Assembly: GCA_028554795.2 (NCBI GenBank)
Contig: CM068842.1
Coordinates: 24,834,590-24,898,589 of the forward strand
Length of the DNA: 64,000 bases
From: Sinohyriopsis cumingii
Lineage: Eukaryota > Mollusca > Bivalvia > Unionida > Unionidae
Direction of reading: 5' to 3'
In this document: in pieces, positions 971 through 21,036 of the stretch
Position numbering within the stretch: position 1 is the first letter of the stretch
Layout: each line of letters begins with the position of its first letter
The notes under the pieces: generated by a model
Told to the model about the DNA's origin: nothing
Database searches by the model: none
The model's input: the letters and a program-made list of their open reading frames with translations, nothing else
Program-made: the position numbers and the translations under genes

Positions 971-1243
971 AGTAGTGAAAGGGGATACTTTACGGACAAT
1001 GGGAATTAGCATTACAGAACCCCTTGGGACACTTTACGGACAATGGAAATTTAACATGGCGAAAAATCGTGGGTCAATCTACGGACAAGGGGAATTTAAC
1101 ATGGCAATAAATCGTGGGACACTCTACGGACAAGGGGAATTAACATGGGATTTTTTTTAAAAAAAATTTTTTAAAAAAGGGGCAGGCAATTCAAAGACTA
1201 TCTCTTTTCGAGAAATATGGCTGGCCCTGAAAAGGGCCTTTGG
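971..1243 (+). repeat. Left terminal inverted repeat
   Basis: These 273 bases match the reverse complement of 20764-21036 with only scattered differences (for example GGGGCAGG here against GGGGTAGG). The outer part contains TACGGACAA units starting at 991, 1035, 1080 and 1125, a spacing of 44-45 bp. Inside these is a T/A homopolymer block (about 1150-1178), then a purine-rich block and a GGCCCTGAAAAGGGCC palindrome. The palindrome read on the minus strand is a histone-type 3' stem-loop. Confidence 0.95.
1201..1238 (-). terminator. Histone-type mRNA 3' stem-loop and downstream element in left TIR
   Basis: On the minus strand the sequence reads GGCCCTTTTCAGGGCC (1238-1223), a 6-bp stem with a TTTC loop. 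It is preceded by CCAAA and followed by AGCCA, then TCTCGAAAAGAGA (1213-1201). This is the layout of metazoan histone 3' ends: stem-loop bound by SLBP, then a purine-rich element that pairs with U7 snRNA. It lies 22 bases after the stop codon of the minus-strand gene at 1261-1491. Confidence 0.8.
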
Positions 1244-1260
1244 TTTATGTTAATATTCCC

Positions 1261-1491
1261 TTAACATAAAGGGCATTTGCGACATCTTCTTTTCCTCAAA
1301 CTTCGTCTTACAGCAGGGCCATACATCAGAGTCCTCTTGAGGCAACCTTGTCTCTCTATATAGACTCTTCTTATCCACAGACTGCTGTTGGTCCTGTAGA
1401 CAACGGTCCACTTGGATCGGACATACATGAGCATGTCCGTCCTGAACATCATTGTTGACACAAGGGTTGAAGATTCAACGTCGGTCCACAT
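1261..1491 (-). CDS. Small basic protein with Cys-rich tail, left-edge gene (76 aa)
   Basis: I do not recognise the family. The ATG is at 1491 and the stop at 1261. The C-terminal third is strongly basic and ends in a short run with three cysteines (RRSLRKRRCRKCPLC), which could bind nucleic acid or metal. A TATA box on the minus strand (1543-1535) sits about 45 bases upstream of the ATG, and a histone-type stem-loop follows the stop within about 22 bases. These two flanking signals are the main reason to accept such a short frame. It diverges from the gene at 1711, with which it shares an intergenic promoter region. Basic core proteins are common in Polintons and adenoviruses, but I see no specific match. 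Confidence 0.55.
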   Translation of the reverse strand: MWTDVESSTLVSTMMFRTDMLMYVRSKWTVVYRTNSSLWIRRVYIERQGCLKRTLMYGPAVRRSLRKRRCRKCPLC

Positions 1492-1710
1492 GTTGAGGCT
1501 CCGAGAATAGGTGAATCAATGCAGTGAACTGCGCTTATTTATAGGGACAGAAAGGATTGAAACGGATTGAGTTCATTCACCAATCCGAACACGCGTTACA
1601 GAATTCAGTCAGCCCGCATCCAATCCGAAGAGAGCAGTCTGTGACGTCACGTAGTCAATATAGATTCGCTAGCGCTTGTGTGCAGTCAATCTATGCGATA
1701 GTGATTCAAC
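1492..1710. promoter_or_regulatory. Divergent promoter region at the left edge
   Basis: For the minus gene there is TATAAATAA (1543-1535). For the plus gene a weaker AATATAGA lies near 1657. Between them are two CCAATCC boxes (about 1580 and 1620) and a perfect palindromic CRE/ATF-type site TGACGTCA (1642-1649). CCAAT and CRE-like sites are common in cell-cycle-regulated animal promoters; that these are used here is an inference. Confidence 0.55.
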
Positions 1711-2277
1711 ATGACGGAAACTCAGAAAACGATCCAGTGGGGTGCACCAGCAGGGGAGACCGCCCAAGGGAACCCGGACTTACTTTCAGAAGAGGTGAAT
1801 TGGGATTTTGTGGATTTTCTCTCCTCGCAAGAATTTGTTCCGGAACCTGCGTTACCTTCTTCATTACCGCAAGTGGAGAATTTTAGACAGAGACAGAAAG
1901 AAGAATTGGAGAAATTTATACAACGACAAAAGGAAGCGGAACAAGCTTTTCTCCTACAGCAACAGCAACAAGAAGAAGAGGTAAGAAAAAAACAACAGCA
2001 AGAAGAAGTAGCAGCAAAGAAACAAGAGGGTGAAAATCAAACGGTCACGGTACTGTTGGACATTTTAGCGGAGTTAAGAAGTCTGAAACAAATGTATCAG
2101 ACTTCTTTATCACGACCGAAGAGAATACGACCTTCCCGAGCCAAACATGTCAACCCTGTGACTAAGCCTACCGTACCACCCTTAGTGATTTCAACCCAAT
2201 CATTATCATCATTACGCAGTCCAGAAGTAGGCCTTGGCCGTGGCAAGGGCTTAAGGCAGTTAAAATTGATTGCTTAA
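1711..2277 (+). CDS. Coiled-coil protein, left-edge gene (188 aa)
   Basis: The family is not recognised. Residues 1-50 are acidic and aromatic. Residues of about 58-125 are rich in Q, E and K with heptad-like spacing, typical of a long coiled coil. The C-terminal 60 residues are basic with Pro and Ser and end in a Gly/Arg/Lys patch. An overlapping frame (1557-1886) is a shadow. The stop is followed 22 bases later by a histone-type stem-loop and downstream element, so the mRNA may lack a poly(A) tail. In charge pattern and gene ends it resembles the coiled-coil genes at the right edge (18779-20749), though no clear sequence homology is visible. Confidence 0.75.
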   Translation: MTETQKTIQWGAPAGETAQGNPDLLSEEVNWDFVDFLSSQEFVPEPALPSSLPQVENFRQRQKEELEKFIQRQKEAEQAFLLQQQQQEEEVRKKQQQEEVAAKKQEGENQTVTVLLDILAELRSLKQMYQTSLSRPKRIRPSRAKHVNPVTKPTVPPLVISTQSLSSLRSPEVGLGRGKGLRQLKLIA

Positions 2278-2298
2278 ACTCACCCCTGCACCAAAAAA

Positions 2299-2337
2299 GG
2301 CCCTTTTCAGGGCCACCCACATTTCTCGAAAAGAAAT
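2299..2337 (+). terminator. Histone-type mRNA 3' stem-loop and downstream element
   Basis: GGCCCTTTTCAGGGCC (2299-2314) is preceded by CCAAAAAA and followed directly by ACCCA, the canonical histone flank. CTCGAAAAGAAAT (2325-2337) follows in the position of the purine-rich histone downstream element. It is the closest of the five copies to the animal histone consensus. Confidence 0.85.
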
Positions 2338-2470
2338 ACAATTTCAATTTGCCAATAACTCAAAAAAACTCACCCATGTTACCCTTATAGTACGTCTCTG
2401 TGTATGAGTGCGTGAGTGTAGCTTCTTATTTTAAAATCAAAACTCAAAGACTCTTACCTTATATCATTCA

Positions 2471-2476
2471 TTTATT
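2471..2476 (-). terminator. Poly(A) signal of the minus-strand zinc-knuckle gene
   Basis: TTTATT on the plus strand reads AATAAA on the minus strand, about 50 bases past the stop at 2529. This gene therefore appears to use ordinary polyadenylation, unlike its convergent neighbour at 1711-2277. Confidence 0.6.
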
Positions 2477-2528
2477 CTTTTCTCCATTTTTTACAACCCA
2501 ATTTACAATTCACATCACAACACTTTAA

Positions 2529-3035
2529 TTAAAAGTTCATTGATTTCTTCTTTTCTCCTTGTTTAGTCTCTCTGTTTTTAAATTTCTTCACCGTCACACT
2601 CTTTTCCTCTTCTTCTTCCTCCTCGCTTTCATCCCTTCTTCTTTTTTTCTCCTGTTTCTTTTTCTTCACCTGTCTTCTTTCTTCCTCAGAAGAATCCCTC
2701 TCTTCCTCTGAAGAATCCCTCTCTTCTTCTGAAGAATTCCTCTTTTCTTCTGACTCCTCTTGTTTCTTTTTTGGGCAATCTGGAGACCAATGTCCTTTTT
2801 CTTTACAATAATAACAGGTATCTTGACTTTTGTCTTTTTTATCCCCTGTTTTTTTTCTTTTTTGACGGTCTGGACACTCTGAAGACCAATGCCCTTTCTT
2901 CTGACAGATATAGCAAGTATCTTGACTTTTATCTCTAAAGGAAGGAGAGTAGTCCGTAGGCTGGTCTGAAGAGAATTTTCTAATGACCCCTCGCAAAGCT
3001 CTGACGAAACGTTCCATCTGGTTAGTCTCTTCCAT
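2529..3035 (-). CDS. Protein with two CCHC zinc knuckles and a charged tail (168 aa)
   Basis: Two CX2CX4HX4C knuckles (CYICQKKGHWSSEC and CYYCKEKGHWSPDC) sit in near-identical linkers, indicating an internal duplication. Knuckles of this kind bind single-stranded nucleic acid, as in retroviral nucleocapsids and cellular CNBP. The C-terminal half is low-complexity, with repeated SSEEERD units, then Lys/Glu-rich sequence. The first ATG is at 3035. A longer frame to 3083 would need a GTG start, and the TATA box (3098-3090) places the transcript start near 3065, so the shorter form is preferred. It diverges from the polymerase gene. Its presence beside a Polinton polymerase is unusual in my knowledge; a role in genome handling is a guess. 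Confidence 0.72.
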   Translation of the reverse strand: MEETNQMERFVRALRGVIRKFSSDQPTDYSPSFRDKSQDTCYICQKKGHWSSECPDRQKRKKTGDKKDKSQDTCYYCKEKGHWSPDCPKKKQEESEEKRNSSEEERDSSEEERDSSEEERRQVKKKKQEKKRRRDESEEEEEEEKSVTVKKFKNRETKQGEKKKSMNF

Positions 3036-3169
3036 CGTTGTGCTCGGCTTGAGAGTGAAATGAATAGTGAAAGGACAAGACACACACCCTTTTATATACG
3101 CTGGTCTGCTATGACTATAAAGTAGTTTATGGTGTTTGAACTTGAGTCATTTGACTTTTTGCTTTCAAG
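3036..3169. promoter_or_regulatory. Divergent promoter between zinc-knuckle and polymerase genes
   Basis: A minus-strand TATATAAAAG (3098-3089) points to the zinc-knuckle gene. A plus-strand TATAAAG (3116-3122) lies 48 bases before the polymerase ATG at 3170. The two TATA boxes are about 20 bases apart, back to back. Confidence 0.7.
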
Positions 3170-6100
3170 ATGAAACGATCCCATTCATTCGAGAAGAAAG
3201 AAGAAGAAAGTAAGAGGCAGAAACGTGATCTATCGCCTCGTACCAGGGCTGAAATCTTGGCACAAATTCATGCCAGTGATTTTGAAGAGGACATGAGTGA
3301 ACCAGAATCCCAACCCTCTAAACCAAGTTCATCACCCTTAGTCAACCCTGAAAAGTACTATTCCATTCGAGAGACGGAAAAGCGCTCCTCTAGAAAATTT
3401 AGAACTACGGCTTACAAATACACGGTGAAGTTTAAAGATTTCAAGTCCGACGTGCCGTTAGAGAAAGCAGAAGTGTTCATCACCGAGGTGTGGGATTCTT
3501 TGCTCACTTCACTCAAGCGACAATGTCAACCCAAAGAAGACGATCGCTTGAGACTTTCCATACAACACGACGGTTTGAAATCCCCTGTTTGGATCGAGTT
3601 TAGCACGCCTGCAGAATTAACTGCTTCCAAAGTCATGGACAAGATTCAACACGTACAACAATCTAATGATCAGTTTGACATCACCGATGGTAAAGCCACA
3701 CTGGACATGACCCACGTCTCTCCTCCTCAAGGGACTGGACGCAAAAAGATGTTATTGGTGGACGACCTTCGCAACACCAAAAAGAGTCTCGTCCGAATTA
3801 ACAACCCTCAAGACCAGATGTGTTTAGCCCGTGCCATCGTGGTGGGACGAACCTATGCCAACAAGAACAACACGGTAGAATGGAAATGAACCTGGGACAC
3901 TATTCAACGTTCCGACCGAGCCAAACAACGAAACGAAGCAGAACTCCTGTTACAACAAGCCGGACTGCCCAAAGACACACCCTGCGGCATTCCTGAGATG
4001 CAAAAATTGCAAGATGTCCTAGCTCCACGATACACCTTGAAAGTGCACCCTCAAGAAATGCGCGGGCCTCTATTGTTTCGAGGCCAAGATTTTAAGGACG
4101 GAAAATACATTCATGTTTATCATCACGATGACCATTTCGATACCATTACCAGTATCACCGGATTCCTGGGATACGGTTATTACTGTGAGAAATGTGACTA
4201 TGGTTATAATAATCGAGAGCAACACAAACATTGTGGATGGAAATGCTCAGGATGTTTGGCCTCTCCACCCTGTCTGAGCGAAGAACCAGTGCCTTGTTCC
4301 ACTTGTCTGCGCACGTTTGTCAGCCCTACCTGTTACCAACAACATTTGAAGACGCAAGGTTCACAGAAGAAATGCGCTTGTCAACTCCTGAGATTGTGCC
4401 CTACGTGTGGACAAGGCATACGTACCAATAATACCAAGGCACACGTATGTTCAGGAAAGAAAAAATGTCACATTTGTCACCACATCGTGGACTTGGAACA
4501 CGAATGTTACGTGCAAAAATACCAACCCCCACCAGAGAAAGAGGACGGTCACAAGAAGAAAGGCAATTTCATCTTTTTCGATTTCGAATGCATGCAAGAG
4601 ACTGGCATTCACATTCCTAATTTCTGCGTGGCTCATCGAGCGTGCGAGAAGTGCATTCAAGAACCTATCTTCAGTCATTGCCCTCACTGTAGCAAGATTC
4701 CCGGAGGGCGTGAAAAAATCTTTCGGGGACCAAACACGTTAGCCGATTTTGCCCAATGGGTCTTAGACCCCGTCGACAAGACGTGGAGCCAAGAGGACAT
4801 CGAACGTTACGGAGATTGTCATCGCCATGCCACGGTGATGGCTCACAATTTCTCCGGATACGATGGACAGTTTCTTCTCAGATACTATACGGAACAAGGC
4901 ACCGAGCGTCCTAAAGTGACTTTGAACGGAGCCAAAATCATTTTCATGCAAGTGGGACAAGTACAGTTTAAAGATTCGATGAGCTATTTGGCCATGCCTT
5001 TGAGTCGAATGCCTAAAACGTTTGGAATGACAGAAATGGCTAAAGGGTACTTTCCACACTTTTTCAATACGGAAGCCAATCAACACGCCGTTCTACCCCA
5101 TTTACCTGAGGCTCACTATTACGACCCCGACAACATGCGTACCGAACAACGAGAAGCTTTCTACGCTTGGTACCAGATTCACGCCTCGGACCCTTTCGAC
5201 TTTCAGGAAGAAATGCTAAAGTATTGTCGTTCCGACGTGGACATTTTACGGCGTTGCTGTGGAAAATTTCGAGAACTGTTCATGGAACACGGAGGGGTCG
5301 ATCCTTTGAAAGAAGCTTGCACCATTGCCAAAGCGTGTTCCTTAGTGTATCGACAACGATTCATGCCTGAAAACACCGTGGCTGTCATCAGTCCTCAAAC
5401 GACCCACTTTGTCAAACGTCAATACTCGGTCAAAGCCCTACGTTGGTTACATTACTTGTGCGACAAGGAAGACAAGTGGATTCAGCATGCTCGCAACGGA
5501 GGGGGTGAAAAGACCATCGGAACGTATTCGGTCGATGGCTGGGACTTAGAAAACCCCAAGATCGTGTACGAGTTTAACGGTTGCTTATTTCACGGATGTC
5601 CCGTCTGTTACCCTGACCGTGGCACTAAAAATCAGTTTTTGCAACGAACCATGGAAGACTTGTACCAGGACACTTGTCAGCGACGCCTAAAGTTAGAACA
5701 GCAAGGATACCAAGTGGTGGAAATGTGGGAACACGAGTACGATCACCGTATGAAAACCGATCCCGAGTTTAAACGTGCCGTGGAAAGTTACCAGTTCATG
5801 GACCCACTGAACCCGAGGGATAGTTTGTACGGAGGAAGGACCAATGCCACTTGTTTGCTGTACCAAGCCGACGAAGAGATAGGAGAAGAAATCAAATACT
5901 TGGACGTGTGTTCGCTGTATCCCTACGTGTGCAAATATTGTCGCTTTCCTGTAGGGCACCCGCAATTGTTAACGGAACACATCGACCTGAAAAACATTCG
6001 ACAATACGAAGGCTTGATCAAGTGTAAAGTTTTGCCTCCCACGAACCTATACCATCCCGTCTTACCTCACCATTGTCAAGGCAAATTGATGTTTCCCTTG

Positions 6101-7207
6101 TGCCGTACTTGTGCCGAAACGTGCAACCAAGATCAACCTTGTCAGCACAGCCAGGAAGAACGGGCCTTGACGGGAACCTGGGTCAGCGTAGAATTGTTCA
6201 AAGCTTTGGACATGGGATACCAACTGTTAGAAGTGTACGAAATTTGCCACTTTCCCAAGACACAACAGTACCGCAAGGGTGATCCCAGTCAGAAAGGCAT
6301 TTTCGCCGACTACGTGGATGCCTTTTTGAAACTGAAGCAAGAAGCCAGCGGCTATCCTTCCTGGTGTCACACTCCCGAAGACCAAATACAATTCAAAGAG
6401 AAATACTACGAACAAGAAGGCATCACTTTAGACCACATCGAGAAAAACGAAGGCAGGCGATCGTTTGCCAAAGTGATGTTAAATTGCTTGTGGGGTAAAA
6501 TGGCACAACGACCGTGTTTACCCAAGACGGAATATTTGACAGAACCTTCCCGCTACTTCCAGATGATTCACGACAAAACCAAATACATGAAACACGTGGA
6601 CGTCGTTCGAGAGAATTTGATCTTGGTCAATTACGAAGAAGATCTGGACTTTGTACAAGACGACCCTTTTGGAAATGTCATCATTGCGGCTTACGTGACA
6701 GCCCATGCTCGCTTAAAATTGTACGAAGCTTTAGAACTGTTAGAAGAACGCGTCCTGTACTTTGACACGGACAGTTGCATTTACATCCATCACCCGATTC
6801 AACATCACCCTGACATCGAAGGAGACCGTTTAGGAGCCTGGACAGACGAGCATCCCGACGACAAGATTCTAAGTTTCGTCAGTGGCGGTCCTAAAAATTA
6901 CGGCTACGAATACCGGGACAAACAAGGAGAAGTGCACACGACGTGCAAAGTGAAAGGACTGACTCTGAATTATCGTACCAGTCGAGTGGTCAACTTTGGG
7001 GTATTGAAAGAAGCCTTGCAATCGGGAGAGGATGGAAACTTTAAAGTGACCACTCACCAACCGAACAAGATTGTACGTTTACCCACTCACCACATCGTCA
7101 GTCGACCTTTGGAAAAAGTTTATCAAATCGTGTACCAGAAGCGAGTTCGACTTCCCAATCATTTCACCTTACCGTATGGACACGTTGGTATAAAACATTG
7201 GTTGTAA
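3170..7207 (+). CDS. polB: Protein-primed family B DNA polymerase, interrupted by one in-frame TGA
   Basis: This would replicate the linear element from a protein primer at its ends. The frame is open from 3170 to 7207 except for TGA at 3887-3889. After that stop there are 36 sense codons before the next ATG at 3998. The first part (239 codons) resembles the N-terminal domain of metazoan Polinton polymerases. The second part has Cys/His clusters (about 4180-4510), the exonuclease motifs (DFE near 4580, HNFSGYD near 4843, YCRSDVD near 5221) and polymerase motifs A (DxxSLYP, 5903), B (KVMLNCLWGK, about 6470) and C (YFDTDS, 6758). All catalytic acidic residues are present. The stop could be a real nonsense mutation, a sequencing error, or a readthrough codon. 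If real and not read through, the catalytic part might still be made from 3998 but would lack the N-terminal domain. Confidence 0.93.
7189..7195 (+). promoter_or_regulatory. TATA box of the first BIR gene
   Basis: TATAAAA lies inside the last codons of the polymerase gene, about 40 bases before the ATG at 7231. Confidence 0.6.
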
Positions 7208-7230
7208 GAGGATAGCCACCCACCAGAAAG

Positions 7231-7689
7231 ATGACTTCGCCACAGCAAGAATCGAGTGAGAAACCCGATGAGAACTCCAAGTTCAAACCCTACCATTTTC
7301 CAGTCTTCTTACCTGACTATTGTGATTGTGCCCGTCGATTGGACACGTTTCAGAAATGGCCTACGGATAGGGAAGGATTACCTTCTTCGCATGTTTTAGC
7401 TAGAACAGGATTTGTCTACTTGGGACCTGAGTCAGGATTGGGATACGAGGTACAGTGTTTCGCTTGTGGATTGAAGTTACGAATGGATCTATGTATCTAT
7501 AAAGATTCAGCTATTCTGGAACATACTCGATGGTCTCCGCACTGCCCTTACCTTTCTATGGCCTTTCCACCCATTACACTACGGTACAATGTTGACGGTA
7601 CCTTAGAGACGGTACCTTCCGAAACAAGACATAAAAAACGTAAAAAAGGAAAGATGTACAAACTGGAGACTGCATTGCGACTAGTATAA
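7231..7689 (+). CDS. BIR-domain (IAP-like) protein 1 (152 aa)
   Basis: A single BIR domain spans about residues 30-108. It begins with RLDTFQKWP and has the LARTGFVYLGP turn, then zinc ligands C76 and C79 (CFAC) and H98 and C105 (EHTRWSPHC). BIR domains in inhibitor-of-apoptosis proteins bind caspases or other BIR partners. There is no RING domain, so ubiquitin-ligase activity is not expected. The tail (about 125-152) is basic. The spacing between C79 and H98 is two residues longer than in classic BIRs. It lies 23 bases after the polymerase stop with its own TATA box and is followed by a second, diverged BIR gene. A role in restraining host cell death is a reasonable inference. Confidence 0.9.
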   Translation: MTSPQQESSEKPDENSKFKPYHFPVFLPDYCDCARRLDTFQKWPTDREGLPSSHVLARTGFVYLGPESGLGYEVQCFACGLKLRMDLCIYKDSAILEHTRWSPHCPYLSMAFPPITLRYNVDGTLETVPSETRHKKRKKGKMYKLETALRLV

Positions 7690-7693
7690 AAAG
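7685..7693 (+). promoter_or_regulatory. TATA box of the second BIR gene
   Basis: TATAAAAAG overlaps the end of the preceding gene and lies 64 bases before the ATG at 7749. Confidence 0.65.
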
Positions 7694-7748
7694 GGGGCTA
7701 TGGTCAAGATCGATAGTTCATTGTGACTACCAAGACCGAGCGAACAAA

Positions 7749-8492
7749 ATGAATACTTTGAAAGAGACATCGTTCCAGTTTGGGGATTGTAAAAAAGCTG
7801 TATCTTTCTCTAGTGTGACTAATACTGGATGGATAAGACCCAGACATTGCGAGGGAAAATGTCCGGAAGGAAACTGCGATTGTCCATGTGGTTACCATTG
7901 TAATTGCGTAACGGAGTTTGCAGACGAGTGCGATTGTGAGCCTTGCGATGGGACCGATGCTGTACCTTGTGACCTGAGCGATGCCGTAAAGCATCATGGG
8001 AACTTTAGTGCCCCTACCCCTGTCATGGAAAGTGATGCTGTGCGTGTCAAACCTGTGGGATGCGAAAGCGATGCTGCTCGTCCTCTTGGACATTTTACTG
8101 GGTTTCGTTTTAAAGGGGAATGTCGACCTTCACGTTTACCTCCCTACGGATGTCATCCAGCCCTGAGCAAACTCCTGCCCATTTCACTCAACCCTCATCG
8201 AAACGAACCTGTGAAAAACGAATATTCGTTTCCTGTGCGTTTGTCGGAATACTGCGACTTTGAAAATCGTCTTCAATCGTTCAAAGGAAAATGGCCTAAG
8301 TATCTGGGAGGACCGACCCCCGAAGAATTAGCCAGAGCCGGATTTTTCTACTTGGGCGAAGGAGATAAAGTCAAGTGCTTCAGTTGCAGTGTGTCACTTC
8401 ACCACTGGGAACCGCAAGATTCGGCCTACGTAGAACATGCTCGATGGTCACCGAATTGTCATTACTTACCTTTAGTGGGACCGAGACATTGA
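7749..8492 (+). CDS. Cys-rich plus BIR-domain (IAP-like) protein 2 (247 aa)
   Basis: Residues of about 36-78 form a dense cysteine cluster (CEGKCPEGNCDCPCGYHC and following) that may bind metal. This is followed by a repetitive stretch with recurring SDA and DAV motifs. A BIR domain occupies about residues 158-240, with RLQSFKGKWP, ARAGFFYLGEG and zinc ligands C210, C213, H230 and C237. The C213-x16-H230-x6-C237 spacing is exactly canonical. No RING is present. It is clearly related to the BIR protein at 7231 but has an added N-terminal half. I do not recognise the Cys-rich region. Two tandem BIR genes suggest duplication inside the element or two captures. Confidence 0.9.
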   Translation: MNTLKETSFQFGDCKKAVSFSSVTNTGWIRPRHCEGKCPEGNCDCPCGYHCNCVTEFADECDCEPCDGTDAVPCDLSDAVKHHGNFSAPTPVMESDAVRVKPVGCESDAARPLGHFTGFRFKGECRPSRLPPYGCHPALSKLLPISLNPHRNEPVKNEYSFPVRLSEYCDFENRLQSFKGKWPKYLGGPTPEELARAGFFYLGEGDKVKCFSCSVSLHHWEPQDSAYVEHARWSPNCHYLPLVGPRH

Positions 8493-8520
8493 AGTAACTT
8501 TTTACCATAATAATCTGTTC

Positions 8521-8976
8521 ATGGATACTTTACAAGAGAACATTTGTGCTTTGCCTGTGGAGTTGAGAGAACGCATTTATCGAGAACTGGTCAAAATACA
8601 AGTGAAACGTAAAGAACAATTGCATCCGATACGTCACCGGTGTTTGAACCACTGGTACCTGAAGGCTATACAAGGACTGATTCAATTGAAAGTGTTCCAT
8701 TGGACAGACATTGATCAACGACCTCCTGGTTATAAAAAGGAATGGTTTGGTATTGACGATTTTATCTACTACATTGTAAACGTACTGCATCGAATTCCAG
8801 AGGAAGAGTTAACGAATTACCAACATCTTGAACACAATGTCAACTTGGTGAAAGAGGAAACTTCTGAACGAATTGTAATGTGTAGATTAGTGACTCAACG
8901 ATTTAAATTCGACACTGAAGTGAAACCATGTTTGTGCAAAGAGTACATTTCTTGTGTCAGACCAAAGAGGATTTAG
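8521..8976 (+). CDS. F-box-like accessory protein, tandem copy 1 (151 aa)
   Basis: The N-terminus contains ALPVELRERIYRELVKIQ, which resembles the start of an F-box (LP-x-EL-x3-I). F-box proteins recruit substrates to SCF ubiquitin ligases; this assignment is tentative because only the first part matches. The remainder is charged and aromatic with no recognised domain. Residues 1-35 are almost identical to the next gene while the C-terminal halves have diverged. That pattern is expected if the N-terminal half binds a constant partner and the rest binds varying targets. There is no clear TATA box; the ATG at 8521 follows the BIR gene by 28 bases. Confidence 0.72.
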   Translation: MDTLQENICALPVELRERIYRELVKIQVKRKEQLHPIRHRCLNHWYLKAIQGLIQLKVFHWTDIDQRPPGYKKEWFGIDDFIYYIVNVLHRIPEEELTNYQHLEHNVNLVKEETSERIVMCRLVTQRFKFDTEVKPCLCKEYISCVRPKRI

Positions 8977-8988
8977 TATGACCTATTC

Positions 8989-9507
8989 ATGGATACTTTG
9001 CTAGAGAACATTCGTGCTTTGCCTGTGGAGTTGAGAGAACGCATTTACCGAGAGCTGGTGAAAATACAAGTCAAACGTAAAGAACAATTGCATCCGTTAC
9101 GTCACCAGATCTTTAACCACTGGTACCTGAATGGTATAAGAGAACTGATTCGTCAGAAATTGTTTCAGTGGTCAGACCTTGTTCAACACTTTGAGTTAGT
9201 GAATGATCGAAATGTTCATTATTTTGGTTACTTCGAGATTCACCTACAGCAATACATTGAGGAAGACAAGTTAAAGGATTATCAACATATTTTACGTGGA
9301 ATCTACTTAGAGGAAGAGGAAACTTCTAAACGAACTCTGAAGTTTCGGTTACAGTATGCAAGATTTAGATTCCCTACTGGAGAACGAAGATCTCTGGCTA
9401 GAAAGTACGTGTATTGTTTCCGAAACAAAGAGACTATAAAAACAGGCTGCCATGCCACGACTTATGTCACATGTCATCCAACAGATTCCGTGGAAGGAAC
9501 TCAATGA
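8989..9507 (+). CDS. F-box-like accessory protein, tandem copy 2 (172 aa)
   Basis: A paralogue of the gene at 8521, only 12 bases downstream. The first 35 residues differ at about five positions. They share the F-box-like ALPVELRERIYRELVKIQ, and the following HWYL segment is conserved. The C-terminal part differs and ends in a Thr/His-rich tail. At the DNA level the first 120 bases of the two genes are also nearly identical, so the duplication is fairly recent or kept similar by gene conversion. The 3' end overlaps the start region of the next small frame (9452). The function is unknown. Confidence 0.72.
   Translation: MDTLLENIRALPVELRERIYRELVKIQVKRKEQLHPLRHQIFNHWYLNGIRELIRQKLFQWSDLVQHFELVNDRNVHYFGYFEIHLQQYIEEDKLKDYQHILRGIYLEEEETSKRTLKFRLQYARFRFPTGERRSLARKYVYCFRNKETIKTGCHATTYVTCHPTDSVEGTQ
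9435..9443 (+). promoter_or_regulatory. TATA box before the small gene at 9452/9464
   Basis: TATAAAAAC lies within the end of the F-box-like copy 2. With usual TATA-to-start spacing the transcript would begin near 9465, so the ATG at 9464 or a later one is more likely to be used than that at 9452. Confidence 0.5.
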
Positions 9508-9790
9508 CCATATTCAAACCGTGGATCATTACCATCGATTATTACAAGAACTGTATCCATTCAATTTGGGTCGACAAGTGTCATGTGTCTTAGTGACTTG
9601 TTTTCTGGGATTTCGTTTACCAGCCGATTCTTTCTGGACTCTTTACGATCAGAACTTACCACACCCCCATGGCCTTAAATGGTCACGAAAAACTCCTTTT
9701 GCTCAAAGCCTTGCGTTTTCATCTGGATACTTCTCGACCTCTACGGGAAAAAAGGATTCGTCAACTTTTAGCTACCCAAGACGTGTATGA
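9452..9790 (+). CDS. Small accessory frame, possibly the 5' part of a frameshifted gene
   Basis: The first 75 residues look protein-like, with IPWKELNDHI near the start that faintly recalls the F-box-like motif of the two upstream genes. After about 9680 the frame turns Ser/Thr-rich and less convincing. From 9669 a different frame becomes protein-like. The switch coincides with a run of five C (9664-9668). Either this is one gene broken by a single-base shift, or two overlapping genes. ATG codons are at 9452 and 9464. The family is not recognised. Confidence 0.45.
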   Translation: MPRLMSHVIQQIPWKELNDHIQTVDHYHRLLQELYPFNLGRQVSCVLVTCFLGFRLPADSFWTLYDQNLPHPHGLKWSRKTPFAQSLAFSSGYFSTSTGKKDSSTFSYPRRV

Positions 9791-10218: not shown

Positions 10219-10230
10219 AAAAAAACATTC

Positions 10231-10236
10231 AATAAA
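10231..10236 (+). terminator. Poly(A) signal AATAAA for the accessory gene group
   Basis: AATAAA lies just after the last small accessory frame and 20 bases before the TATA box of the ATPase gene. It probably ends transcripts from the BIR/F-box-like region. Confidence 0.6.
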
Positions 10237-10251
10237 CGTGTTCTGAAAAAG

Positions 10252-10259: not shown

Positions 10260-10305
10260 CTCTTGTCTTGTTCGTTTTCGTGTCACAAGTGACATTTCCC
10301 ATACC

Positions 10306-12049: not shown

Positions 12050-12054
12050 AAAAG
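12045..12054 (+). promoter_or_regulatory. TATA box of the small hydrophobic-tailed basic protein
   Basis: TATAAAAAAG overlaps the stop codon of the preceding gene, 63 bases before the ATG at 12108. Confidence 0.65.
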
Positions 12055-12107
12055 GCCTGTGACCGAGTAGGATATCAGTGTTTTTTGGTGCTCCTGAAGA
12101 CTCAAAG

Positions 12108-12488: not shown

Positions 12489-12537
12489 AAAGGCCCTCGA
12501 AAGTCCCAAGATCTCAGAATTCACCCCTGACAACCCC

Positions 12538-13164: not shown

Positions 13165-13181
13165 CACACAAACACAAAAAA

Positions 13182-14294: not shown

Positions 14295-14299
14295 CCATC

Positions 14300-14710
14300 A
14301 TGCCCTTTCACACATCAGACGCAGCTACGTCGACCACTCCTTCTTCCCCTAGTTCTTCTGTGCAAGATTTACAAAAACAACCCTTGTGGGTGTGGTGTGG
14401 AGAACGTGTGCCTAAAACGCAAATCGTCTTTTTCTGCCAAATCTTCGTGGTGTATTGTGTCATCGGGGCAGCCATTGCCAATTTGAGTTTGCAACAAGGA
14501 GACAAACAATTGTGGACCATTTTATTGAGCAGTTGCATCGGTTACCTGCTTCCCAATCCCTCCCTGAAATTCTCCTCGAACGGGAACCCCGGGAACCTTG
14601 TGTCCAGTGCCAGTGTCAGTCACAACCACAACCAGAACCCCATTTTGGGTGGAGACACGCCTCTGACGTCCACTAACCCCTCGGACAGCCACAGAACTCT
14701 AGAATTATGA
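14300..14710 (+). CDS. Conserved Polinton two-span membrane protein (136 aa)
   Basis: Two hydrophobic segments lie at about residues 40-60 (IVFFCQIFVVYCVIGAAIA) and 72-87 (WTILLSSCIGYLLP). They are joined by NLSLQQGDKQ and followed by PNPSLK. This small protein with an NLSL turn and a GY-LPNP end recurs in metazoan Polintons and adintoviruses. Its role is unknown, perhaps in virion membranes or entry. The ends are Ser/Thr/Asn-rich and likely disordered. The stop overlaps the next start as ATGA (14707-14710). The frame begins at 14291 only by GTG; the first ATG is 14300. Confidence 0.78.
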   Translation: MPFHTSDAATSTTPSSPSSSVQDLQKQPLWVWCGERVPKTQIVFFCQIFVVYCVIGAAIANLSLQQGDKQLWTILLSSCIGYLLPNPSLKFSSNGNPGNLVSSASVSHNHNQNPILGGDTPLTSTNPSDSHRTLEL

Positions 14711-15642: not shown

Positions 15643-15649
15643 GTAAGTC

Positions 15650-16066
15650 ATGTATCCAGTGTACCGAGGGGTTGCTCGACAGCGAGGACACGGTTTAGGA
15701 GATATGTTAAAATCGGCCTTTCGTTCGGTGGCCCCAGTGTTGAAACCGATGGTGACACGCGGATTGCACGCCTTGAAAGATGCGGCACTGACGCAAGGCA
15801 AAGAATTTCTCCAAAATGTCATCATCGACAAACAAAACCCTAAAGAAGCCTTCATGAGGGCAGGCAAAAATGTCTTGCTGCAAACGGGTAAAGACATTTT
15901 AGGTCGACGAGACACACCTATAAATGCCCTGCACGCTACCGAGTCAGGCATTCAGCAAGGACAAGGCAGAAAGAGACGACGAAGAAAACACCCTTTCACC
16001 AGACTTCAAGCGAGAAAGGCCAAGAAAAGAAGAACCGTTCGAGACTTAGACGTTTTCGATTATTGA
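15650..16066 (+). CDS. Small basic virion protein, pVI/core-like (138 aa)
   Basis: The N-terminus MYPVYRGVARQRGHGLGDML is followed by an amphipathic helix (FRSVAPVLKPMVTRGLHAL). The C-terminus has two basic clusters (GRKRRRRK and KAKKRR) that may be nuclear signals or DNA contacts. A protein of this form, YRG...RGxGLG plus helix plus basic end, is usually found beside the major capsid gene in Polintons and adintoviruses. It has been compared with minor adenovirus virion proteins. It starts 7 bases after the penton gene and ends 16 bases before the capsid gene. Confidence 0.78.
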   Translation: MYPVYRGVARQRGHGLGDMLKSAFRSVAPVLKPMVTRGLHALKDAALTQGKEFLQNVIIDKQNPKEAFMRAGKNVLLQTGKDILGRRDTPINALHATESGIQQGQGRKRRRRKHPFTRLQARKAKKRRTVRDLDVFDY

Positions 16067-16082
16067 GAAAGAACAGAACAAA

Positions 16083-17381
16083 ATGATGCACCGAGAGTCT
16101 TGCGCTTGTTCCAAAACGGAACTGGATCTGTTTACCATGCCCCCCACCATGATGACGATGCAAGAATCCCAGTGGGTGGAATTTCATCCCGTCTCCTCAT
16201 TGACCGATTCCGCTCCCATCGAGTTTGAAATCAAAGGACAACCCGAAGATTACATCGATTTGAATAGCAGTTACTTGTACTTGAAAGTCAAAGTTCTAGA
16301 TAAGGATGATGGTGGAATAGATGACACTGAGAATATAGCTCCCGTCAACAATTTCATGCATTCCTTGTTCAGCTCAGTGGACTTGTACTTGAATAACAAA
16401 CTGGTCAGCAGCAGCATGGATACTTACCCTTACCGTGCCTACCTGGAAAATCTCTTGACGTACGGAATAGATGCCAAGGATACCCATCTCAATGCCTGTG
16501 TGCTGTGGGAACCTGACGAAGCGGGCAAGTTCGACCTTGTAGATGGAACCAATAGTGGCTTTGAGCAAAGAGAAATCAAAATCTTAGACAAGAGGAGTTT
16601 AGAACTGATGGATCGTTTGCATTTGGACATGTGGTTGCAAGAGAAGTATTTGCTGAACGGGGTCAATGTCCGCCTCAGACTGAATCGAAGCAGTACCGCT
16701 TTCCATTTGTTGGCTGATGCTACTAAGGCTCCTAAAAGCAAAATCGAAGAGGCCAAACTCTACGTACGACGCGTGGAAGTGTTACCCAAAGTAGGTAACG
16801 ACATCAGTCAAACGTTGAGCAGAACAACCGCCAAGTATCCCATACGACGTGTGGAAGTGAAAACGTTCACCATTCCCGCTAACCATCATTCCATGATCGA
16901 AGATCATCTGTTTCAAGGACAGTTACCCAAACGTTTAATCCTTGGCATGGTCGAGAATTCAACCTTCAACGGACACTTCGCTAAAAATCCTTTCAACTTT
17001 CAGCACTTCAACGTGAAGAAAATCGAAGTCAGTCGCGATGGCAAGACCTTGTGTACCAGACCTTTCGAACCCGACTTTGCCAAGAACAATTACTTTAGAT
17101 CGTACTTGTCCTTGTACGAAGCCACGGGCCAGTTAGGAACCAACACCAGTCACGGCATTACGTACGACGATTATGCAGGAGGCTATGCTTTGTGGGCTTT
17201 CGATTTCACTCCAGACCAGGGCAGCGACGAGGGACATTTCCACCCTATAAAATCAGGCCAGATTCGTGTGGAACTTCAGTTTGCAAAGCCACTGGACGAT
17301 ACAGTGAACGTCATCCTGTATGCAGAATTTGATAATACCATAGAAATCAACAGTTTGAGAGAAGTCATTCTAGATTACTAG
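16083..17381 (+). CDS. Double-jelly-roll major capsid protein (432 aa)
   Basis: This is the hexon-like shell protein of Polintons. Landmarks include PIEFEIKGQPEDYIDLNSSY near residue 42, an NNFMHSLFSSVDLYLNNKLV segment near 88, and the second-barrel LPKRLILGMVENSTFNGHF region near 282. The C-terminal strand VNVILYAEFDNTIEIN also fits. The length is within the usual range. It lies directly between the small basic protein and the NCYGC protein. It is complete and shows no obvious defect. Confidence 0.93.
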   Translation: MMHRESCACSKTELDLFTMPPTMMTMQESQWVEFHPVSSLTDSAPIEFEIKGQPEDYIDLNSSYLYLKVKVLDKDDGGIDDTENIAPVNNFMHSLFSSVDLYLNNKLVSSSMDTYPYRAYLENLLTYGIDAKDTHLNACVLWEPDEAGKFDLVDGTNSGFEQREIKILDKRSLELMDRLHLDMWLQEKYLLNGVNVRLRLNRSSTAFHLLADATKAPKSKIEEAKLYVRRVEVLPKVGNDISQTLSRTTAKYPIRRVEVKTFTIPANHHSMIEDHLFQGQLPKRLILGMVENSTFNGHFAKNPFNFQHFNVKKIEVSRDGKTLCTRPFEPDFAKNNYFRSYLSLYEATGQLGTNTSHGITYDDYAGGYALWAFDFTPDQGSDEGHFHPIKSGQIRVELQFAKPLDDTVNVILYAEFDNTIEINSLREVILDY

Positions 17382-17386
17382 AAACC

Positions 17387-17872
17387 ATGGAAGACTGTTA
17401 TCCCTCTTTACCTAGTGGAGAAACTTTGGAGATGGAATGTGAGGAGACCCTGGAAAAAGAAGAAGTAATCATGATGAAGTCGAGATGGCCAGAAGAAGAA
17501 GCCCATTTAGTCTCCTGTTTTGCCAAACACTTGGCGGACAAAATGACGGAACTGATCAAGAAAAATTGTTATGGATGTCAAAACGATCATCCCAGTCAAA
17601 TTCAACACGATAAATGCCTGATGTTAAGTCAAGAAGAAAAATTGGACGAGTATCTGGACGAAGCTTGGAGTCTCATCTCGGACAAAGACGTGTTGCACCA
17701 GTGGTATAAAGACTTGCGTGAACATTCTTGTCCACCATTAACCACTCAAGAGATCCATCGTATCGAAGCTCTCCTGAATCAGAGTGAGGAAACAGAACGA
17801 ATAACCGTTTATTCGTCAGACATTTTCAAGCAAAAAGTCAGGATCGAATTGACGACTTATTATTACCTGTGA
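17387..17872 (+). CDS. Conserved Polinton protein with NCYGC...HPSQ...HDKC zinc-like motif (161 aa)
   Basis: Residues of about 59-78 contain NCYGCQNDHPSQIQHDKC. Two Cys, two His and a further Cys suggest zinc binding. This motif is a signature of a small protein found in many metazoan Polintons between capsid and protease genes. The N-terminal 40 residues are acidic; the remainder is predicted helical with Leu and Trp heptads. The function is unknown. It follows the capsid stop by 5 bases and precedes the protease by 25 bases. Confidence 0.78.
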   Translation: MEDCYPSLPSGETLEMECEETLEKEEVIMMKSRWPEEEAHLVSCFAKHLADKMTELIKKNCYGCQNDHPSQIQHDKCLMLSQEEKLDEYLDEAWSLISDKDVLHQWYKDLREHSCPPLTTQEIHRIEALLNQSEETERITVYSSDIFKQKVRIELTTYYYL

Positions 17873-17897
17873 AGAAGAAAAAAGCACACACAAATCA

Positions 17898-18458
17898 ATG
17901 GATACCTGGGAACTTTATTACCTTTTGAACCACAGTTCGTATACGGCTTCTTGGAATCCTGTCGTCTGTGCTAAAGATGAACTCCCTCATCGCAAACCTA
18001 AAGACCATCAAGCTTACGTGATCAACACGGACGACAGTCATCTCCCAGGAACCCACTGGGTAGCCGTCTACTTTCCTCAAGAAGGATGTGTGGAATATTT
18101 CGATTCGTATGGATTGCCCCCTTTGGAAGACGATATCATCGACTTTATGAGAAGAAATGCTCAAACCACCCGATTCAATAACGTGAAATTACAAGGCACA
18201 GATTCCTTGGTGTGTGGACAGTACTGTGTGTATTTTCTGCATCATCGCAGCCTGGGCTATTCCTTAGAACATTTAGTGACTCATTTCGATCCTCGTTCTT
18301 CTGCTAGAAACGATGTGAAAGTAGATCGATGGTTTTGTGACCATTATGCTTATCTTTTGTCTCAAGCTAGGAAACGTAGTGTCCATCAATGGCCTAATGA
18401 TTTCCAACAGTGGAAATCACAATTTCATTCACAACGTTGTCAGCCTTGTTTAAAGTAG
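17898..18458 (+). CDS. Adenain-like (C5/Ulp1 fold) maturation cysteine protease (186 aa)
   Basis: Catalytic residues are visible: H53 in GTHWVAVYF, D69 in EYFDSYG, and C110 in CGQYCVYF. Gln 99 or 108 is a candidate for the oxyanion hole. In adenoviruses and Polintons this protease trims capsid and core proteins during particle maturation. The length is close to adenain. It is the last gene of the structural block and is followed by an A/T-rich region with AATAAA at 18564-18569. Confidence 0.93.
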   Translation: MDTWELYYLLNHSSYTASWNPVVCAKDELPHRKPKDHQAYVINTDDSHLPGTHWVAVYFPQEGCVEYFDSYGLPPLEDDIIDFMRRNAQTTRFNNVKLQGTDSLVCGQYCVYFLHHRSLGYSLEHLVTHFDPRSSARNDVKVDRWFCDHYAYLLSQARKRSVHQWPNDFQQWKSQFHSQRCQPCLK

Positions 18459-18687
18459 ATTGTATTTGAAGAAAAAAATGTTTGTGATTTGAAAAAAATT
18501 GTTTGATGTTATAGTGTTGGATTATTGTTAAAAATGTTGTTGTTTAGTGTTAAGTGATTTTTGAATAAAAAATGTTGTGTTTAGAAAAAAAATGCCTTTG
18601 TCTTTTGTTTAGCTATAAGAATGTTGGATTGATGCTCTTTCATTTCTTACTATCCCTCTCATGAACGTTGCGGCTCGAAAACCGTGT
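18459..18687 (+). other. 3' region of the structural block
   Basis: These bases are T/G-rich with several short repeats of ATGTTGTGTTTAG type. AATAAA at 18564-18569 is the likely poly(A) signal for the late genes. After 18600 the sequence leads into the first right-edge promoter. No gene is seen. Confidence 0.6.
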
Positions 18688-18713
18688 GGGGATGTTTTCC
18701 TTCACGTCCGCGC
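18688..18713 (+). promoter_or_regulatory. Right-edge promoter motif, copy 1
   Basis: GGGGATGTTTTCCTTCACGT, followed by CCGCGC. The same 26-bp motif occurs at 19564, 20230 and 20300. Here the TATA box seen in other copies is degenerate (CTTTAAG near 18720). The coding start follows at 18779. Confidence 0.7.
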
Positions 18714-18778
18714 TTTAACTTTAAGAACCGGGTTGTTCCCAGTCTAGCCATCCATTGTCGACTCATCCTCCTAAGAAG

Positions 18779-19156
18779 ATGTGCTCCAAACTAGCTAAGC
18801 TCAACGAAGCCTACGTGAATCTGCATAGGGTCAGACACAGTCTGATACCGAAACCAGAAGAAATAGAGAATGTGAGAATGTTAAAAATCACTGAAGACCT
18901 GATAGAAGAGCTCTTCAGAGAAGAAATGAACAGGGAGAAAGAAGAATGGACAGAGAAGTACAGACTTCAGAGACAGCAGCAACAGGAGCAACAGCAGCAG
19001 CAACAACAGCAACAGCAACAGCAGCAGCAACCTGAAGCTGACAGAGGCTTTGTCGATTGTCGTATCGACACCAAAGAATTCTTCTTCTCTTTCCGAAGAA
19101 GCAGACCTATCGCCAGAAAGTCTATCCTCAGAGGACATCGCATTCTTAGAAACTAA
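18779..19156 (+). CDS. Right-edge coiled-coil protein with Gln tract (125 aa)
   Basis: The first ATG is 18779; an upstream extension to 18755 would need a TTG. Residues 1-60 are Leu/Lys/Glu-rich and helical. A long Gln tract follows (DNA about 18976-19030), then a short basic C-terminus with several Ser and Arg. The family is not recognised. The start KLAKLNEAYVNLHRVRHSL loosely resembles that of the next gene (19654), which has KLLELHVHLEYARRIL. Promoter motif and histone-type 3' end are shared with it, so the two are probably old duplicates. Confidence 0.68.
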   Translation: MCSKLAKLNEAYVNLHRVRHSLIPKPEEIENVRMLKITEDLIEELFREEMNREKEEWTEKYRLQRQQQQEQQQQQQQQQQQQQQPEADRGFVDCRIDTKEFFFSFRRSRPIARKSILRGHRILRN

Positions 19157-19195
19157 AAAAAGAATGCCATAGCAAAAAAAAAACAACAAAAAAAC

Positions 19196-19235
19196 AGCCC
19201 TTTTCAGGGCTACCCAATACTCTAGAAAAGAAATA
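19196..19235 (+). terminator. Histone-type mRNA 3' stem-loop and downstream element
   Basis: AGCCCTTTTCAGGGCT (19196-19211) is followed by ACCCA (19212-19216) and CTAGAAAAGAAAT (from 19222). The outer stem pair is A-T instead of G-C, a paired change that keeps the 6-bp stem. It lies 40 bases after the stop at 19156. An AATAAA (about 19275) follows downstream and might act as a backup. Confidence 0.82.
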
Positions 19236-19563
19236 ACGATCCATTTGCCAATGTGTGTAGGTAGAGTAGTGTGAAAATAAACACTAACTCTTTCTTAAAA
19301 AATGTGAGGGTATGAGTTTGTGTGTTTGTGTGATTGTGTTTGTAAGTGATAAAGTAGGTTGGTGTGGATAGTAGATTAAAGTGATGTTTGTTTTTTGGGC
19401 TGTTTGAGGTGTATATTTTGGGTTAGATTGGATTGCTTTGCGTATGTGGATAGTCTATTGAAGTGATGGGTAGCATAAAAAAGTGAGCGAGTGTTTCTTT
19501 TAGGTCCGCGCGTTGTTGTTGTTTCTTGGTCATGATCTAGGTAAGATGAATTTTATGTTTTTA
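19236..19563 (+). other. Intergenic stretch between right-edge modules 1 and 2
   Basis: Contains a T/G-rich region, a truncated promoter motif (AGGTCCGCGCG, 19502-19512) and GGTCATGATCTAGGTAAGAT (about 19528-19547). That last sequence recurs at about 20262-20281. No gene is seen. Confidence 0.55.
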
Positions 19564-19603
19564 GGGGATGTTTTCCTTCACGTCCGCGCTTTCAGTATAA
19601 ATT
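19564..19603 (+). promoter_or_regulatory. Right-edge promoter motif, copy 2, with TATA box
   Basis: The 26-bp motif GGGGATGTTTTCCTTCACGT plus CCGCGC (19564-19589) is followed 6 bases later by TATAAATT (19596-19603). The ATG at 19654 is about 55 bases beyond the TATA box. Confidence 0.78.
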
Positions 19604-19653
19604 GAAACTCGTTCGGCAGTCCAGCTACCCTTGTTGATTGATCAACACCAAAA

Positions 19654-19863
19654 ATGAACACGAGACTGGAGAAACTGTTGGAACTTCATGTGCATCTGGA
19701 ATATGCCAGGCGCATATTAAATGAACTGGCCGCTGAAGCCATTGTCGAGGAGGGAAGGATAAGAGAGGAGGAAAGAAGAAAAAAAGAAGAGGAGGAAAGA
19801 AGATATAAAGAAGAGGAGGAGGAAAAGGAGAGAAGAAAAAAATTTCAGAATCCCAGAGAGTGA
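19654..19863 (+). CDS. Right-edge short coiled-coil protein (69 aa)
   Basis: Residues 1-30 have a Leu-rich amphipathic helix (RLEKLLELHVHLEYARRIL). The rest is a highly charged E/R/K helix, suggesting a continuous coiled coil. The family is not recognised. The promoter motif with TATA box lies just upstream. The histone-type stem-loop is 145 bases after the stop, farther than in the other cases; the sequence between (about 19870-20000) may be an untranslated tail or a decayed 3' part of a longer gene. Confidence 0.62.
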   Translation: MNTRLEKLLELHVHLEYARRILNELAAEAIVEEGRIREEERRKKEEEERRYKEEEEEKERRKKFQNPRE

Positions 19864-20007
19864 AAATTGGGATTCTGAAGCGACATATCCTGCCTCTGCT
19901 CTCTCCCCCCAAAAGGTAAAAAGTAACTGGGGGATAAGATGTGTATGTGGCGCCAGGCCTGGAAGGTGCCACCATTAACCAGGTGTCCATGAAGTTCCAA
20001 ACAAAAC

Positions 20008-20047
20008 AGCCCTTTTCAGGGCTACCCAATACTCTAGAAAAGAAATA
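20008..20047 (+). terminator. Histone-type mRNA 3' stem-loop and downstream element
   Basis: AGCCCTTTTCAGGGCT (20008-20023), ACCCA (20024-20028) and CTAGAAAAGAAAT (from 20034). The stretch 20003-20105 is a near-identical direct repeat of 19191-19290, so this 3' end was duplicated with its module. Confidence 0.82.
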
Positions 20048-20229
20048 ACTATTAATTTGCCAATGTGTGTAGGTAGAGTAGTGTGAAAATAAACACTAAC
20101 TCTTTATTAATAGTGGAAGTGTATGTGTTTGTAAGAGCTCAGGTATGTTTGTGTGAATAGTAGATTATGGGTTTCTTAGCAAATGTGGAGAGTATAGTTA
20201 GGGTTATATTATATGAAATGAGAAAGTAG

Positions 20230-20337
20230 GGGGATGTTTTCCTTCACGTCCGCGCGATGTTGGGTCATGATCTAGGTAAGATCCATTTTATGTTTTTAGG
20301 GGGATGTTTTCCATCACGTCCGCGCTTTTCGTATAAG
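20230..20337 (+). promoter_or_regulatory. Right-edge promoter motif, copies 3 and 4, with TATA box
   Basis: Copy 3 is at 20230-20255 with no gene of its own. Copy 4 is at 20300-20325 (one change, CCATCACGT) followed by TATAAG at 20332-20337. Between them is GGGTCATGATCTAGGTAAGAT, which also precedes copy 2. The ATG at 20387 follows copy 4. Confidence 0.75.
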
Positions 20338-20386
20338 AACCCACAGTATTAGTTGTTCAAACCATTCTGCAAAGAATAAAAAGAAG

Positions 20387-20749
20387 ATGGCGTCAAACCA
20401 AATGGACAAAATACAAACCTTGCAAGACGTTTTAGACAACTTAGGAATAATGGAACAGATGCTATTAAGACTGGTTGAAGACCATTATTCCTATAGTCCC
20501 CATCGTGTGAAGATGGAAATTAATAACTTAAGGAAAGCAAAGGACAAGATTAGTGGTGTCATGAAAGAGATCAAGGAGGAGAAGGAGGATGAAGAGGAAA
20601 GAATAAGAATACGCAATTGGAACGAAAAAATTGAAAAAGAAGAAGAAAATGAAAAGAAGAAGAAAGAAGAGGAGGAGAAGAAAAAAAAGAAAGAGAAGAA
20701 GAGTGTAGGAGATAAAATAAGAACTTGGTGGAGGAAAAGAAGAAATTAG
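20387..20749 (+). CDS. Right-edge charged coiled-coil protein (120 aa)
   Basis: Residues 1-60 form a Leu-rich helical region (KIQTLQDVLDNLGIMEQMLL). Residues 60-120 are almost entirely K and E with some R, ending WWRKRRN. The family is not recognised. The gene has promoter motif copy 4 and a TATA box upstream. The stop is 19 bases before the histone-type stem-loop in the right terminal repeat, mirroring the arrangement of the minus-strand gene at the left end. Confidence 0.7.
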   Translation: MASNQMDKIQTLQDVLDNLGIMEQMLLRLVEDHYSYSPHRVKMEINNLRKAKDKISGVMKEIKEEKEDEEERIRIRNWNEKIEKEEENEKKKKEEEEKKKKKEKKSVGDKIRTWWRKRRN

Positions 20750-20763
20750 AAGAAGAAGAAAAC

Positions 20764-21036
20764 CCAAAGGCCCTTTTCAGGGCCAGCCATATTTCTCGAA
20801 AAGAGATAGTCTTTGAATTGCCTACCCCTTTTTTAAAAAAATTTTTTTAAAAAAAATCCCATGTTAATTCCCCTTGTCCGTAGAGTGTCCCACGATTTAT
20901 TGCCATGTTAAATTCCCCTTGTCCGTAGATTGACCCACGATTTTTCGCCATGTTAAATTTCCATTGTCCGTAAAGTGTCCCAAGGGGTTCTGTAATGCTA
21001 ATTCCCATTGTCCGTAAAGTATCCCCTTTCACTACT
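20764..21036 (-). repeat. Right terminal inverted repeat
   Basis: These 273 bases match the left repeat (971-1243) inverted, ending CACTACT at 21036. They contain the outward-facing histone-type stem-loop, the T/A block and four TTGTCCGTA units at about 45-bp spacing. Confidence 0.95.
20769..20806 (+). terminator. Histone-type mRNA 3' stem-loop and downstream element in right TIR
   Basis: GGCCCTTTTCAGGGCC (20769-20784) is preceded by CCCAAA and followed by AGCCA, with TCTCGAAAAGAGA near 20794-20806. The last element could pair well with the CUCUUU of U7 snRNA. It lies 19 bases after the stop at 20749. Confidence 0.82.

Follow-up and report, generated by a model that had tools for sequence, protein, structure and literature searches.

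Replication-dependent histone mRNAs end at a characteristic signal (Rfam family Histone3, RF00032), in which a six-pair stem with a four-base loop is framed by an A-rich 5' flank and an ACCCA-type 3' flank and followed by a purine element. According to PMC5706932, the stem-loop-binding protein SLBP and the U7 small nuclear ribonucleoprotein (snRNP) recruit cleavage factors to histone pre-mRNA, and the stem-loop together with SLBP also promotes histone mRNA decay at the end of S phase. Here we describe signals of this type in a 64,000-nt stretch of the genome of the bivalve Sinohyriopsis cumingii (assembly GCA_028554795.2, contig CM068842.1; hereafter the window), where they follow non-histone genes at the edges of a mobile element, a Polinton located at positions 971–21036 (no strand assigned). 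Like Polintons/Mavericks and adintoviruses, this element has a polymerase, an integrase with a chromodomain, an ATPase, a protease-like gene, a capsid gene whose family includes proteins named from Mercenaria and oysters, terminal inverted repeats (TIRs) and a 6-bp target duplication; unlike them, it has histone-type 3' ends on its edge genes, as strongly supported by the comparisons below. Hairpins lying directly after genes also mark 3' ends in virophages and giant viruses, where transcription is virus-encoded and the ends are polyadenylated. To our knowledge, no U7-type element accompanies those hairpins, and we know of no virus or transposon for which processing of its non-histone messages by the histone 3'-end pathway has been described.

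The five signals belong to two edge genes on the left (L1, L2) and three on the right (R1, R2, R3). Direct reading confirmed the five 16-nt stem-loops at the coordinates and strands given by an earlier sequence-only reading of this DNA: 1223–1238 on the minus strand for L1 (inside the left TIR, 22 nt past the stop codon) and, on the plus strand, 2299–2314 for L2 (outside the TIR, 21 nt past the stop), 19196–19211 for R1 (39 nt), 20008–20023 for R2 (144 nt) and 20769–20784 for R3 (inside the right TIR, 19 nt). All are in sense and 3' of a stop codon. The stop-to-stem gaps had been put at 19–40 and 145 nt; four indeed fall at 19–39 nt, while the 144-nt gap of R2 results from an early stop in the window copy. 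A GAAAAGA downstream element follows at 1203–1209 (minus), 2328–2334, 19225–19231, 20037–20043 and 20798–20804 (all plus), starting 13 nt past the stem in all five cases rather than 10–11 bases as previously stated. Part of the downstream sequence is common to all five sites, and the R1 element lies inside CTCTAGAAAAGA. All five sites fold into a six-pair stem with a pyrimidine-rich four-base loop (−11.4 kcal/mol for L1, −9.0 kcal/mol for R1). With the RF00032 model, whose curated cut-off is 34 bits, three sites were recovered above the cut-off (2294–2338, plus, 41.2 bits; 1198–1243, minus, and 20764–20809, plus, 35.6 bits each), and the R1 and R2 sites (19191–19236 and 20003–20048, both plus) remained under it with 31.0 bits and an E value of 6.4e-5 each. 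Relative to the Rfam family, the window L1 and R3 sites have AGCCA as the 3' flank, and the outer pair of R1 and R2 is A-T. When up to 3 mismatches are allowed, RGCCCTTTTCAGGGCYA occurs six times in the 64 kb, whereas shuffled sequences lead one to expect 0.24 occurrences; five of the six are exact, and the sixth is a chance match within the L2 coding region.

The host histone genes provide the most direct comparison. They were located independently with the Pfam family PF00125, many of them sharing contigs at intervals of about 8.3 kb, and H3 and H4 (four loci) as well as one H2B gene, which we take to be H2B from its C-terminus HAVSEGTKAVTKYTSSK, were compared. Host H3 and H4 carry GGCCCTTTTTAGGGCC at 28 and 27 nt past the stop, respectively, followed after 13 nt by GAAAAGA, and their RF00032 scores (35.9 and 37.7 bits) are within the range of the Polinton sites. 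At 34 nt past the H2B stop stands GGCCCTTTTCAGGGCC, then 13 nt, then GAAAAGA inside CTCTAGAAAAGA. The H2B 16-mer is identical to that of L1, L2 and R3, and the 12-mer CTCTAGAAAAGA of H2B is that of R1 and R2. Six-pair stem, GAAAAGA and 13-nt spacing are thus the same in host H3, H4 and H2B and in all five Polinton sites, which indicates that the form of the signal present in the Polinton is that of the host itself.

To what extent the signal accompanies edge genes in other copies was assessed in two samples. For copies chosen by the motif, from the 36 RF00032 places described below, ends were counted with the window included and the selecting site of each locus omitted, allowing up to 3 mismatches within 700 nt of the gene start for R2 and 200 nt of the gene end for the other genes. 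The signal was present after 40 of 40 edge genes (L1 2, L2 16, R1 9, R2 12, R3 1) and after none of the 43 interior-gene ends searched in the same way (CCHC gene 6, gene at 3170 13, polymerase 2, protease 8, capsid 7, gene at 17387 7). The other sample comprised 12 of 97 listed copies picked by their capsid gene without reference to the motif, and yielded 24 left or right edge stretches; L049, L058 and L059 have no edge gene, and the L1 ends of L056 and L061 and the L2 ends of L057, L060, L062 and L063 were left out as lying beyond the stretch. All 47 readable edge sites carry the signal with up to 3 mismatches (R1, R2 and right TIR 11/11 each, L1 8/8, L2 6/6), and of the 20 stretches submitted to RF00032 (out of 24), 16 gave together 20 sites at the cut-off. 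Taken with the shared stem, element and spacing of the host histone genes, this strongly supports the assignment of the sites as histone-type 3' ends, as the sequence-only reading had proposed.

An RF00032 search of the 2.9-Gb assembly gave 75 scored places, from a part of 589472 candidates. Each of the 36 places examined among these 75 is a Polinton edge rather than a histone gene, 35 being recognised by edge-protein matches and one (L014) by the tail of an open reading frame (ORF) and its flanks. Since all examined best-scored matches belong to Polintons, the host SLBP/U7 machinery may be used to a notable extent by this element.

Across the capsid-chosen copies (for L2 from five of six sites, L064 being too short), each of the five slots has an identity of 1.0 for GAAAAGA and of 0.968–1.0 for the stem-loop; the spacer reaches 0.977–1.0, save for L2 (0.863). 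The 80 bases upstream have identities of 0.939 (R1), 0.774 (R2), 0.669 (right TIR), 0.768 (L1) and 0.928 (L2), and bases 25–60 past GAAAAGA 0.955, 0.962, 0.643, 0.675 and 0.808, respectively. At L1 and at the right TIR the module is thus clearly better conserved than its surroundings; the difference is smaller in R1, where both flanks are well kept. The L2 and R1 ends of the motif-chosen copies behave similarly, with 0.961 and 0.972 for the stem-loop, 0.982 and 0.968 for GAAAAGA, and 0.949 and 0.616 upstream. Among 85 motif sites across copies, one of which is the chance match in L2, each stem pair is formed in 80–85 and the 13-nt spacing is found in 78. The change of the outer pair from G-C to A-T in R1 and R2, earlier taken as compensation under selection, is real, but the R1 and R2 3' ends are a duplication with 95% identity over 111 nt, so that it probably represents one event and is a weaker argument for selection. 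Beyond this A-T class, the 85 sites contain 6 wobble and 15 mismatched cells. Covariation was set aside as proof of the stem, being too weak.

We consider it probable (about 0.84), from these comparisons, that the edge genes use the host SLBP/U7 signal of replication-dependent histone mRNA 3' ends. Host SLBP would bind the stem-loop of the edge-gene transcript, the U7 snRNP would pair with GAAAAGA, and the pre-mRNA would be cut about 5 nt past the stem, giving short edge messages that end in a stem-loop without poly(A). Because the SLBP/U7 machinery works in this way, the edge mRNAs could be non-polyadenylated and linked to S phase; they would accumulate together with histone mRNAs, so that edge-gene expression would be concentrated in S phase or in germline or embryonic cells that divide rapidly, and would keep pace with replication of the element. 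At 1258 and 20749, the inner borders of the TIRs are no more than 3 nt away from the L1 and R3 stop codons, so that both outward-reading genes end on the signal that begins the TIR. As the outermost signals begin at this border, L1 and R3 could end within the element, independently of flanking DNA.

Interior genes, which are closely packed, had been stated to show AATAAA; this holds for 4 of 19 of them within 300 nt past the stop (at 53 nt for the CCHC gene, 106 nt for the protease, 221 nt for the gene at 9669 and 189 nt for the gene at 14300, in the last case inside the next coding region), the other 15 have neither AATAAA nor ATTAAA, and the R1 and R2 edge genes have AATAAA as well. The contrast in AATAAA between edge and interior genes is weaker than had been proposed. 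The hexamer after R1 stands at 19276–19281 (plus), about 65 nt past the stem-loop, and is followed by GT-rich sequence; a similar one is found at 20088 after R2. The idea of two 3'-end pathways, with interior genes processed by polyadenylation and edge genes by the histone pathway, the latter limited to S phase or dividing cells and hidden from poly(A)-selected RNA sequencing, is on this sequence evidence an evenly balanced one.

Several observations weigh against the histone-type reading. A hexamer lies 58–66 nt past the stem in all 22 R1/R2 sites (AATAAA in 4, AATATA in 18), in a stretch conserved nearly like the stem-loop (0.955–0.962); the sequence upstream of R1 and L2 is also well kept (0.939 and 0.928); a search for the host U7 RNA with RF00066 gave no match, but control genomes were equally silent; four distant Polinton contigs have no Histone3 match at E ≤ 1, a negative which is weak because no TIR was recognised in them; and, since the copies are all members of a single young and amplified family within one genome, they do not count as independent and offer a limited contrast in conservation. 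The hexamer in its well-conserved stretch makes tailed forms possible, and it could be a back-up poly(A) site of R1 and R2. Carried further, this would mean that the stem-loop plays a minor part and that the majority of edge messages receive their poly(A) tail further downstream, at the R1/R2 hexamer or, for L1 and R3, in flanking DNA. The constant presence of AATAAA or AATATA and the GT-rich sequence seen in the window fit such an arrangement, but a true AATAAA occurs in only 4 of the 22 R1/R2 sites, where GAAAAGA is invariant, and AATAAA within 160 nt past the stem is rare at the sites filed as L2 (3/21, the 21 including one R1 site) and as TIR (3/35). We regard predominant polyadenylation of the edge messages as unlikely.

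Since the 16-mer and CTCTAGAAAAGA are identical to those of host H2B, the element could instead have acquired a histone 3' end accidentally, multiplied it internally and retained it without function, and the duplication of the R1/R2 3' ends and the youth of the copies, much of whose sequence is still alike, agree with this. Such passive carriage would hardly account for an invariant GAAAAGA and a stem-loop identity of 0.968–1.0 in all slots, values that at L1 and at the right TIR clearly exceed those of the neighbouring sequence, nor for the R3 slot, where two different ORF families can both stop shortly before the same signal; we consider it very improbable. Even slightly less probable is a DNA-level module of the TIR serving replication, integration or packaging, with a likeness to histone genes by descent only. 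Two of the five sites do lie in TIRs, and all five have some downstream sequence in common, but the TIR does not include the L2, R1 and R2 sites, each of the five follows a stop in the sense orientation, the TIR further out is less conserved (0.643–0.675) than the module, and a role in RNA is what one would predict from the agreement with host H2B in stem, spacing and downstream element. Processing by the histone pathway remains the preferred explanation.

The covariance-model search of related elements suggested by the sequence-only reading recovered the signal in host copies and, as described above, gave no match in the four distant contigs; a looser hairpin scan of these contigs, again with no TIR recognised, was also empty. 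An L2 homologue from another assembly (P0130, 67% identical) reads beyond the usual end into WPISGPPTSLEKR, which is near LFSGPPTFLEKR, the signal translated in that frame in a host copy; this suggests that a relative has the signal too. A composite peptide query for translated stem-loops found no match at E ≤ 10, and P0130 itself was likewise not recovered by it. Viral contigs yielded no relatives by capsid protein, capsid alignment or motif patterns. At the level of sequence, the trait is therefore established for a single family of one genome, with a hint of it in a relative. The four distant contigs (L009–L012) are filed in bacterial bins, including those of Escarpia and Bathymodiolus symbionts, yet encode distant Polinton genes, and are probably host contamination. 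One of them contains a weak match to the twister-P1 ribozyme (L010:11734–11798, 28.9 bits, under the cut-off).

The earlier statement that no such signal had been described in Polintons proved nearly right. In PMC12220804, six histone 3' untranslated region (UTR) stem-loop matches are counted in a collection of polinton-like viruses and virophages, with neither positions nor interpretation. Beyond this count (n = 6), the literature on Polintons, adintoviruses and histone stem-loops, covered mostly at abstract level and with few subscription journals, gave no description.

The edge genes themselves are compact, with a TATA-like box near the ATG and short UTRs. None of the five edge proteins has a histone match in Pfam, so these genes would work like histone genes but are not histone genes themselves, in agreement with the earlier view that the signals follow non-histone genes. 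L1 (1261–1491, minus) encodes a basic protein of 76 aa without a Pfam match, has TATAAATA upstream and reads outward into the left TIR. L2 (1711–2277, plus; 188 aa) has 20 homologues found in other assemblies; its predicted structure, one long helix with low-confidence ends (mean pLDDT 68.9), is uninformative on function. R1 (18779–19156, plus) encodes 125 aa with a polyglutamine tract. R2 (19654–19863, plus) encodes 69 aa in the window; in 11 other copies its reading frame runs for 62–150 aa before a stop is reached, and in 7 of these 11 that first stop is 25–36 nt before the stem. R3 (20387–20749, plus) encodes 120 aa with the C-terminus KIRTWWRKRRN, and the right TIR has its inner boundary at the R3 stop codon. 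A CAGTC motif occurs upstream of L2, R1 and R2, and not upstream of L1 and R3. The block GGGGATGTTTTCCTTCACGTCCGCGC is repeated upstream of R1, R2 and R3 (18682–18724, 19558–19600, 20224–20266 and 20294–20336), is present in other copies, and is perhaps a shared promoter element of these three genes.

The R3 slot (20387–20749 in the window; L042–L053) is occupied by one of two ORF families, with lengths of about 120 and 195 aa; in each family, several members have a basic, tryptophan-rich C-terminal tail such as KIRxWWKKxR. Among 13 loci examined at this slot, the stop is 16–29 nt before the signal in six and 46–185 nt before it in six, and one has no qualifying ORF. The R3 protein itself was matched in 3 of the 11 right edges of the capsid-chosen copies; others have a different ORF.

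The element as a whole was delimited by its inverted terminal repeats, its target duplication and its Pfam genes. An inverted-repeat comparison within the window gave TIR arms of 288 nt at 971–1258 and 20749–21036 with 97% complementarity, and direct reading showed the 6-bp duplication CTCACA at 965–970 and 21037–21042. The type B polymerase (PF03175, E 1.1e-41), the rve integrase (PF00665, E 2.8e-14) with its chromodomain, the BIR domain and the A32-like packaging ATPase (Pox_A32, 31.7 bits) all exceed the Pfam cut-offs, and the protease-like gene has a weak match to Peptidase_C5 under the cut-off (16.2 bits). The capsid gene has no Pfam match and was named from its position and its 1292 relatives, of which the nearest named ones are from Mercenaria and oysters, with 53% identity and less. 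Two adjoining genes (7231–7689 and 7749–8492) encode BIR (inhibitor-of-apoptosis) domains, and a tandem duplication (8510–8719 and 8978–9187; DNA 85% identical over 210 nt) comprises two related genes with no assigned function. At its left end (positions 1–466, with L041:1170–1205), the window opens within the end of a second, inverted Polinton, whose L1-type stem-loop falls immediately before base 1 and thus some 500 bases away from the Polinton described here. The host genome contains at least 97 capsid genes with 94–100% identity to that of the window, 95 of the 97 listed being free of internal stops; judged from these sequences, this abundance is a recent, large amplification of the Polinton family.

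If the edge genes do use the histone pathway, an RNA signal would tie the gene expression of a mobile element to host DNA replication, which would also explain how such genes could escape poly(A)-selected RNA sequencing. The combination of RF00032 with the host downstream element would then offer a simple sequence test for other Polintons and adintoviruses.

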